From the NCBI GenBank assembly GCA_017510335.1, contig JAFWNM010000039.1:1-64000 (forward strand): a stretch of DNA of 64,000 bases, given 5' to 3'. Source of the stretch: Paracoccaceae bacterium. Its GTDB lineage: Bacteria > Pseudomonadota > Alphaproteobacteria > Rhodobacterales > Rhodobacteraceae. The notes beneath the pieces were generated by a model that was not told the origin of the DNA, did not search any database, and worked only from the letters and a program-made list of their open reading frames with translations. Position numbers and translations under genes: made by a program. Each line of letters opens with the position of its first letter. The first letter of the stretch is position 1. Positions 20,177 to 50,009 of the stretch are shown one piece after another.

Positions 20177-21123
20177 CAGTCTGCCCCCCGCCGGTTTTGC
20201 ACCGATTGCAGCCACATGATGGGCGCGACCACCAGCACCAGCATGACAATCGCCACCGCCGATGCCACTGGCCAATCGCGGCTTCCGAAAAATTCATCCC
20301 ACAGCACACGGCCAATCATCAGCGTGTCCGGCCCGCCCAGCAACGCGGGGATCACATATTCCCCGATGGCGGGAATAAATACCAGCATGGACCCCGCCAC
20401 GATGCCCGGCAGCGACAGCGGCAAGGTGACGGTGAAAAATGTCACCACCGGAGAGGCACCAAGGTCGCTGGCCGCTTCCAGTAGCGCGCCGTCCAGTTTC
20501 GTCAGGTTGGCGTAAAGCGGCAAAATCATGAAGGGCAGATAGGTGTAGACGATGCCGATATAGACCGCAAAATCAGTCTGCATCATCACCAGCGGCTGGT
20601 CGATCACCCCCAACCCCATCAGCATGTTATTGATCACACCATTGGTGCGCAAAAACCCCATCCATGCGTAAACCCGCAACAGGAAACTGGTCCAGAATGG
20701 CAAGATGACCAGCAGCAGCAACAGTGACCGGCGCGGTTCGGGGGCGCGGGCAATGAAATAGGCCATCGGGTAGCCGATCAGCAGCGCGAAAATCGTCGAA
20801 ACTGCGGCAATCCTGATCGAGGACAGATAGGCGTTGCGATACAGCGCATCAGTCAGCAAAAAGCGGTAGTTTTCCAGACTGGCGAAAATTTCCAGCGCCC
20901 CGTCAGGCCCGCGTTCAAACAGCGGTGTATAGGGCGGTCGGGCAATGATCGCCTCGGCCAGTGAAATGCGCCCCAGCACGAAAAACGGCGCCAGAAAAAA
21001 GACCAGCAACCACAACATGGGAATGGCAATCACCAATGTGCGCCCCGACAGGCCCAGTTTTCCCATGGCCCATGCCGTGCCCCGCCAAGGGATTGAGCGT
21101 GTTATGGCGTTCCCCCCCCTCAT
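20176..21123 (-). CDS. potH: Putrescine ABC transporter permease PotH
   Basis: 315 residues. Six membrane spans and the EAA motif LEAASDLGASPVVTFFTV mark an ABC importer permease of the spermidine/putrescine class. The start overlaps the potG stop by four bases (ATGA), supporting the first Met. It pairs with PotI to form the channel. Substrate assignment comes from the PotF-like binding protein at 22326. Confidence 0.92.
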   Translation of the reverse strand: MRGGNAITRSIPWRGTAWAMGKLGLSGRTLVIAIPMLWLLVFFLAPFFVLGRISLAEAIIARPPYTPLFERGPDGALEIFASLENYRFLLTDALYRNAYLSSIRIAAVSTIFALLIGYPMAYFIARAPEPRRSLLLLLVILPFWTSFLLRVYAWMGFLRTNGVINNMLMGLGVIDQPLVMMQTDFAVYIGIVYTYLPFMILPLYANLTKLDGALLEAASDLGASPVVTFFTVTLPLSLPGIVAGSMLVFIPAIGEYVIPALLGGPDTLMIGRVLWDEFFGSRDWPVASAVAIVMLVLVVAPIMWLQSVQNRRGAD

Positions 21124-47121: not shown

Positions 47122-47784
47122 CTATTGAAAAACAGGAGAGGCCAGACCAAACGCCCCCTGCCCTATCGGGGCAAGGGCACGTTCGGTCGGGCCGGAAATA
47201 CAATTCCTAAGCATGATATCAAGCGCAGACGCGCCCCGCGGCAGCGCGCGCGCCCCGATCTGGCTGCGCCGGAAGGCCAGCACACATGTCACATCCCCGC
47301 CCGGCGCGCGCGAGGTGTATGTGATGTCGCCATACTGGTCTGAAACTGCGGTCAATCCACTGTCGGTCACTGCACCAAAAGGCGCAGGCGCGCCCCCGAA
47401 CTGGCGCAGCACATCTTCCAGCACCAAGCGCGACCGGCTGGCGGTCAGCGCGGTCTGGGCGCGCAGGATAATGGTATTTTCGCCTTGCAGGCTGGTGGAA
47501 TTGGGAAGCGTGATGCGCTGTTCCAACGCGCCGTCAAGGTCGCGTTCCAGCACGATCAAGGCGTTGGGCACATTGATCAGCGCGCGTGACGTGGGAACAA
47601 CGCGGAACTCTGTGACAGCTTCGGCAAGTTCGGTCGGGCTTGACCCGTCCAGACTGGCCAGAAAACCGCCGTCACATGCCGACACGCCAAGCGCTGCAAT
47701 GCCCAAAAGCCCCAATATGCGCACACGCGCTGCGCCCCTGAAGAACGCGCTGGTCAGTTCGCCAAACGAATAATCTTTATACAT
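47122..47784 (-). CDS. bcsN: Probable cellulose biosynthesis protein BcsN
   Basis: 220 residues, 21 bases upstream of bcsA. A probable lipoprotein signal ends at ALGVSAC (Cys near residue 37), although the N-terminus before it is long and charged. The VVPTSRALINVPNALIVLERD block, LPNSTSLQGENTIILRAQ, and a later GGDVTCVLAFRR segment resemble BcsN of alphaproteobacterial cellulose operons. Its role in cellulose production is not defined biochemically. A structured, relatively AT-rich leader lies upstream. Naming is moderately certain. Confidence 0.65.
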   Translation of the reverse strand: MYKDYSFGELTSAFFRGAARVRILGLLGIAALGVSACDGGFLASLDGSSPTELAEAVTEFRVVPTSRALINVPNALIVLERDLDGALEQRITLPNSTSLQGENTIILRAQTALTASRSRLVLEDVLRQFGGAPAPFGAVTDSGLTAVSDQYGDITYTSRAPGGDVTCVLAFRRSQIGARALPRGASALDIMLRNCISGPTERALAPIGQGAFGLASPVFQ

Positions 47785-47910
47785 TGCCCTGCCTGCTCAG
47801 GCATACTCCGCAAAAAGACATTCAGGATGCTGCACATCCTGGCGCCACAGTTGCGAAGACGGTCAAATGACCTGCCCATTACTTGCCCATGCCCATACGA
47901 CTGCGCACCT

Positions 47911-47982
47911 CTGACGGGTGCTCTTATCGTCAGTATCCAGCGTTTTATGCTGGTAATCTTGATTTCTTCATTGAAGATTACC
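47911..47982. other. Chain of three inverted repeats in the cellulose operon leader
   Basis: CTGACG/CGTCAG (47911-47916, 47928-47933), CCAGC/GCTGG (47937-47941, 47949-47953) and a perfect 9-bp pair GGTAATCTT/AAGATTACC (47952-47960, 47974-47982). The second and third share two bases, so they cannot both form fully. The pattern suggests a structured leader or stacked operators before bcsN. The rest of the 441-base gap (47785-48225) shows no gene. Confidence 0.5.
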
Positions 47983-48114
47983 GCAGTGCATGGGTCTTTG
48001 CAACGATTGATAAACCATGTCCTGAACGGGGCCGCCGGCTGGCACCGGCTGGCGACAAAAGCTGCGCAATATCTGTGCGCTTTTGCATAATTCCAACCGC
48101 ATGCCCAAAAGCAA

Positions 48115-48140
48115 GGGGCGCAGATAGCCCCCTGCGCCCC
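48115..48140 (-). terminator. Hairpin after the RaiA-like gene
   Basis: A perfect 9-bp stem (GGGGCGCAG with CTGCGCCCC) has an 8-base loop. It lies about 85 bases after the stop codon on the minus strand. No T-tract, so termination is uncertain. Confidence 0.55.
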
Positions 48141-48225
48141 GGAATTCACTACATGTCGTGGCAGCGTGGGCCAGGCGCGATTGTTGCGCATTCGCCACAG
48201 GCGCGTGTCCGGCAGGATTTCCCGC

Positions 48226-48543
48226 CTAGCGGCGCGCGCGCTGTTTGCCCAGTTCACTGTCCAGAACATTGCGCATCTTGTCGGTTGCGCCGGTCACAGC
48301 GGACTGAATATTGTCGGCCGCATGTTCGGCCGTCACAGGCTGGCGTCCCTCAAGGCGGACTTCTACCTTGCAATGCTTGTCATCAGGTCCGCTTTTCGCG
48401 GCGTTCTGGTCACGCAAATACACTTCTACCCGCGTGATGGGGCCTGAAACCGCGCCAAGCTTGGACTCGATCACCTGTGTGACAAAGCGGGTCACATCCT
48501 AGCGCCCTTCGATTGTGTTGTCTGTATTGACCTGAATATGCAT
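48226..48543 (-). pseudogene. HPF/RaiA-family ribosome-associated protein gene with in-frame amber codon
   Basis: The natural start is the ATG at 48543, preceded by AAAGGGCACAGCC. It encodes MHIQVNTDNTIEGR, then TAG at 48501-48499, then in the same frame DVTRFVTQVIESKLG and the rest of an HPF-like fold (ITRVEVYLRDQNAAKSGPDDK without the ending). Without the stop the product would be 105 residues, normal for short HPF/RaiA proteins that bind the decoding region of idle ribosomes. A GTG six bases after the stop (48495) could restart translation, giving 89 residues without the first beta strand. It may be a pseudogene, a re-initiation product or a sequencing error. Confidence 0.75.
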
Positions 48544-48602
48544 GGCTGTGCCCTTTTTGGCTTGTTCTTACACCTTGAGGGTATGCATCCTTCGCGTTCG
48601 CT

Positions 48603-49100
<498 letters not shown>

Positions 49101-49880
49101 CTACACCGCCACCGGGGCCTTGATCCCGGGATGGGGATCATAGCCTTCGATCTGGAAATCATCATAGCGGAAATCGAAAACCGTATCCGGTGTCCGAAGA
49201 ATGTTCATTCTGGGCAAGGGGCGCGGGTCGCGCGCAAGCTGCGTGCGCACCTGATCCATATGGTTGGAATAGATATGCGCATCCCCCAGCGTATGCACAA
49301 AACTGCCCAGCCCCAGCCCTGCAACACGCGCCAGCATCATCTGCAAAAGCGCGTAGGACGCAATATTGAACGGAACCCCCAGAAACATATCGGCAGAGCG
49401 CTGATATAATTGCAAATGCAGCTTGCCCGCCAGAACCCGCACCTGCCACAGCGTATGGCAGGGCGGCAGCGCCATTTCCGGTACATCGGGCGGGTTCCAT
49501 GCCGAGACGATCATGCGGCGGCTGTCGGGGGCCTGCAGAATCATACGTTGCAATTCTGCAATCTGGTCAACACCACCAAAGTCACGCCATTGCCGCCCGT
49601 AAACCGGTCCCAGATCGCCCGACGCGTCGGCCCATTCATCCCAGATACGGACGCCGTTTTCCTTCAGGTAGCCAATATTCGTGTCACCTGACAGAAACCA
49701 CAACAATTCATGGATGATGGATTTCAGGTGCACCTTCTTGGTGGTCACCAATGGAAACCCGTCTTCCAGATCATAGCGCATCTGCATTCCAAACACCGAC
49801 ACTGTGCCCGTTCCCGTGCGATCATCCGATGGCACACCATGGTCCAGAATATGCTGCAACGCATCCAGATACTGTTTCAC
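49101..49880 (-). CDS. thyA: Thymidylate synthase
   Basis: 259 residues from a GTG start ([15 protein letters not shown]), chosen because this matches the conserved ThyA N-terminus; an upstream ATG at 49919 would add 13 unconserved residues. GGGGGCATT precedes it. The nucleophile is Cys141 in LPPCHTLWQ, with [20 protein letters not shown] and the C-terminal [11 protein letters not shown]. It makes dTMP using methylene-tetrahydrofolate. Confidence 0.97.
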
Positions 49881-50009
49881 AATGCCCCCGCCCCGCAAGA
49901 TGTGGTGTATTCGGCGCACAATGGCGGGAAGGTGCTGATTCTGGAACCCCCAAGGGCATTGAACAGCACGGAAATTCAGTTACCATGTTCATCAAAAGGA
50001 GTGCGCAAC

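Follow-up and report, generated by a model that had tools for sequence, protein, structure and literature searches.

On the minus strand, at positions 48226..48543 of the 64,000-nucleotide window (the whole stretch of DNA that was analysed), a 105-codon gene for a short HPF with an S30AE domain is interrupted by a single in-frame TAG at codon 15. We consider it likely, with a probability of about 0.73, that an accessory short HPF gene was knocked out in this lineage by a single, recent nonsense mutation. The gene is probably a dispensable accessory HPF with a recent nonsense allele, and the interruption probably reflects gene decay of the ordinary kind and has no role as a regulatory switch. 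The identification of the gene draws on its translation, its match to PF02482, its orthologues and the fold of a read-through model. The host is described as a soda-lake-type bacterium.

The frame opens with the ATG at 48543-48541 and, translated on the minus strand (48226-48543), reads MHIQVNTDNTIEGR, followed by the premature TAG (48499..48501) and then by DVTRFV...GKQRARR up to the natural stop, a TAG at 48228-48226, which is reached after 90 sense codons past the premature one. Seven bases 5' of the natural ATG lies an intact, ribosome-binding-like AAGGG (48551..48555, minus strand), and purine-rich stretches are found in relatives at the matching position. The read-through protein matched the Ribosomal_S30AE family (PF02482) with an E-value of 2.4e-8 and 35 bits (curated cut-off 23.7), and the part downstream of the stop matched it on its own (E 8.3e-8, 33.3 bits); a search against NCBIfam yielded no near-cut-off match for the frame. 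These matches bear out the assignment to the S30AE/HPF family made by an earlier, sequence-only reading of the locus, and the translation confirmed its description of one in-frame TAG with no frameshift. 48226-48543 is a real gene frame interrupted by a stop, without a frameshift, and not a product of chance. An uninterrupted frame from the usual start is absent from the window copy, which is, on this evidence, a broken copy of a PF02482 family member and not a working one.

The AlphaFold2 model of the read-through protein (pLDDT 88.9) contains strands at residues 2-7, 36-45, 56-64 and 70-76 and helices at residues 14-32 and 79-104, and thus shows the beta-alpha-beta-beta-beta-alpha order of the S30AE fold. 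A structure search with this model returned 25 matches at E <= 0.001, all of which were HPF, RaiA, YfiA, pY or related hibernation factors. The premature TAG falls within the first turn of helix 1 in the model, and the 14-codon stub preceding it (48502..48543, minus strand) holds residues 2-7, which form strand 1, together with six of the 14 alignment columns that are invariant.

A search of the genus, represented by one genome per species, detected a match in 32 of 38 genomes, the host's own included. Among the 37 other congeners, 29 carry a close orthologue (65-93% identity), 2 (G042 and G046) only a distant homologue (43-45% identity), and 6 none. All 29 close orthologues are 105 residues long, and those of the nearest congeners, G012 and G021, are 93% identical to the whole frame. 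Alignment of the orthologues revealed that the TAG replaces an acidic residue in 29/29 cases, with Glu at this place in 26 of them and Asp in the other 3, and the earlier proposal that a single base change created the stop holds. The apparently disabling change is absent from the intact orthologues, as expected for a pseudogene: a search for the same TAG came back empty (0/29 close congeneric orthologues). Furthermore, the TAG was seen in no other copy with its frame read in the genus and family samples, a count that leaves two partial G090 matches outside. Copies in G056 and G358 were rejected as further interrupted genes; their marked stops are the natural C-termini. Two genomes (G010, contig C44, locus L024; G052, contig C258) carry, beside the orthologue, a second and more distant short HPF with 42-43% identity. 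The nearest relatives of the gene lie within Rhodobacteraceae and include named contig records of Roseinatronobacter and Natronohydrobacter. In the family sample of 394 genomes, the host's own included, the short gene was matched in 38, that is, its distribution is patchy.

The interrupted gene occupies a conserved position. Its upstream neighbour is folA, encoding dihydrofolate reductase (48603..49097, minus strand), and its downstream neighbour is a bcsN-like gene (47122..47784, minus strand), both of which are open frames; the latter matched PF17038 with an E-value of 4.8e-5 and 23.3 bits, below the family cut-off of 25.6. In 5/5 relatives examined, the thyA, folA, short HPF, bcsN-like and cellulose-synthase-like genes occur together, with the short HPF gene between folA and the bcsN-like gene. 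Because a terminator-like hairpin of 10 pairs (48115..48140, minus strand), a consensus match only, separates the short HPF gene from the bcsN-like gene, the premature stop is unlikely to act in a polar manner. All 5 terminator-like matches in the region 47780-48750 fell within 47785-48225 (~440 bases), compared with 1.3 in shuffles, although three of these matches overlap and represent a single hairpin. A promoter scan around the locus found none.

Eight congeners lack a close orthologue, and folA could be located in 6 of them (L138-L143). In all 6, no short HPF gene stands between folA and bcsN, and the folA-bcsN gap measures 418-486 bases, versus 819-972 bases in 20 gene-bearing genomes. 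No credible short HPF copy was found by tblastn in these loci: the match in L140 (E 0.025) lies inside the bcsN match, that in L142 (E 1.6, 40 residues) is located in the gap on the strand opposite to the neighbours, and L143 yielded three matches with E-values of 2.8-7.9, all of which we took as chance. In a folA+bcsN tree of 26 genomes (10 of the 36 input genomes were left out, with bcsN, and in one case also folA, absent from the fetched stretch), the 6 gene-less genomes formed one clade with support of 1.000. Thus, judging from the tree, they represent one ancestral absence, not six, whether by loss or because the gene was never gained. Given that one congeneric clade does without the short HPF gene at the same locus, the gene appears to be accessory, and its loss would be tolerable.

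The genome encodes a second S30AE protein, a long HPF of 189 amino acids (contig C7) carrying PF02482 and PF16321. This protein has the N-terminal S30AE domain in common with the short HPF but, unlike the short copy, possesses the C-terminal PF16321, the role of which is dimerisation, has no internal stop, and is encoded upstream of a 154-amino-acid frame that we take to be ptsN. PF02482 was detected in 25/25 genomes of a relatives sample, whereas the short gene is patchy (38/394). Loss of the short factor without loss of hibernation is therefore plausible, with the intact long HPF encoded elsewhere in the genome. Under the favoured reading of a recent inactivating mutation, translation would begin at the usual ATG, RF1 would free a 14-residue peptide at the TAG, the functional 105-residue protein would not be made, and ribosome hibernation would be carried by the long HPF.

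The age of the stop was approached through the codons that follow it. In comparison with the sister genome G012, the 90 post-stop codons displayed a dN/dS of 0.054 (dN 0.033, dS 0.61), and the values for the neighbouring genes in the same pair were higher (folA 0.125, thyA 0.089, bcsN-like 0.082, bcsA-like 0.062). When the count was restricted to changes polarisable with G018, 11 synonymous and 3 non-synonymous ones were assigned to the window branch; the polarisable changes on the G012/G021 stem were 8 synonymous and 1 non-synonymous. Two of the 3 non-synonymous changes on the window branch depart from the residue common to the outgroups G010 and G022. A rough Poisson estimate, with ~34 non-synonymous changes expected on a fully neutral branch and a selected rate of 0.06, limited the neutral share of the branch to <=8.5% (1 change) or <=17.9% (3 changes). 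Thus, relaxed constraint past the stop was not visible at the level of this estimate. Because the post-stop codons look constrained, the stop would be recent relative to the split of the sister species, or the product may still be made, or the TAG may not be real. The earlier reading as a whole, which had a recent pseudogene among its options, holds in part: the 0/29 orthologues with the TAG and the intact long HPF favour a pseudogene, but the downstream frame shows no decay. Such a well-kept downstream frame would be equally expected of a still-translated gene or of an assembly error.

The second of these possibilities, namely that the natural gene is intact and the TAG reflects a mistake in sequencing or assembly, or a change acquired by the sequenced culture, appears unlikely to us, although it deserves some weight. 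One base change would suffice, the TAG occurs in this assembly alone, a 3.61-Mb draft of 43 contigs, and the rest of the short HPF gene is without decay. Against an error, consensus substitutions in draft assemblies are rare, and a survey for broken genes, in which 42 frames of G021 (>=90 amino acids) were matched to 19.4-64.0 kb of the window (1-19.4 kb has no counterpart in the G021 stretch used), uncovered no break inside a coding part besides that in the short HPF gene. The covered part of the window therefore looks clean. Ten frames were flagged in the survey, the short HPF included. Three of the others, with stops at 20296, 47799 and 53925, were rejected as broken genes, the stops being situated in extensions before the probable starts, and so was the frame 48618-50003 with 2 stops, which by its coordinates is antisense to folA/thyA. 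The remaining five were flagged for partial coverage and contain no stops: G021 57101, 62039 and 66038 correspond to open frames in the window and diverge at the ends alone; the matched part of G021 29118 is open, and this frame is probably not a gene; and G021 17141 matches only at 34% and is not an orthologue.

It is more doubtful still that translation restarts at the GTG at 48495-48493, which opens a possible 89-residue frame (48226..48495, minus strand), and yields an N-terminally shortened factor with some function kept. The sequence-only reading had pointed to this GTG and to the AAGGG (48509-48505) nine bases 5' of it, and both are indeed present at the site, where terminating ribosomes would arrive. 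Moreover, the remaining frame is constrained, and bacterial translation is known to restart after early amber codons. However, only 10 of 29 relatives have GTG at this codon, the other 19 having GTC or GTT, and the AAGGG is present in 3/29, the nearest ones, as coding sequence. An out-of-frame ATG with a TGA immediately behind it (48492-48497, minus strand) also overlaps the restart site. The restart product would be deprived of strand 1, judging from the read-through model, and of M1, I3, Q4, N6, T7 and D8, which make up 6 of the 14 columns that are invariant in an alignment of 27 sequences. A functional restart is unsupported.

Even less probable, in our view, is a selected arrangement in which the TAG lowers but does not abolish output, so that small amounts of short HPF, full-length or restarted, would be made, for instance during starvation, in a quantity sufficient for selection to preserve the gene, and the amber codon would control ribosome hibernation through the dose of the factor.

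Decoding of TAG as a sense codon was considered at the level of the genome as well as at the locus. RF1 is present (483 bits; cut-off 423), and TAG terminates 13 of 40 conserved window frames, the short HPF's own end included (TGA 23, TAA 4); genome-wide recoding or suppression was accordingly judged unlikely. No tRNA with a CUA anticodon was among the 35 found above the cut-off in a survey that missed the expected Phe, Tyr and Ile tRNAs and gave one further weak match (17.5 bits). The RNA fold, predicted for secondary structure without pseudoknots, was ordinary relative to shuffles, both in the 121 bases around the TAG (z -0.69) and in the 78 bases after it (z +0.66). Read-through of the TAG, programmed or by a suppressor tRNA, as the regulated or low-dose switch raised earlier is hardly credible: the frame past the TAG is open and conserved, but the codon is an ordinary stop in this window, RF1 is present, no TAG-reading tRNA turned up in the incomplete survey, the RNA fold is unremarkable, and the conservation of the stop expected of programmed read-through is not seen in any of the 29 close orthologues.

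If the nonsense mutation is real, the locus captures a gene shortly after its switch-off and suggests that cells with the long HPF can do without the accessory short one. In practical terms, the value is small and consists in a caution for the annotation of hibernation genes and in a natural test of the redundancy between short and long HPFs.

The closest known counterparts of the interrupted gene are the intact short HPF orthologues of the genus, including those at loci L025 and L026, which are 93% and 90% identical over 105 residues; an internal stop occurs in 0/29 of the intact congeneric orthologues, whereas the window copy has the TAG at codon 15. Among known structures, the best match of the read-through model is 7M4Z, the Acinetobacter baumannii HPF on the 70S ribosome (TM 0.88 and 0.90, rmsd 1.5, 32% identity), the 116-residue chain of which also ranks first by sequence in a search with the family profile (E 2e-30 over positions 1-103). 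Unlike the HPF in 7M4Z, the window copy is truncated by the stop at codon 15. As described in PMC8263017, the A. baumannii HPF is bound to the 70S ribosome at a site that partly overlaps a 30S drug site.
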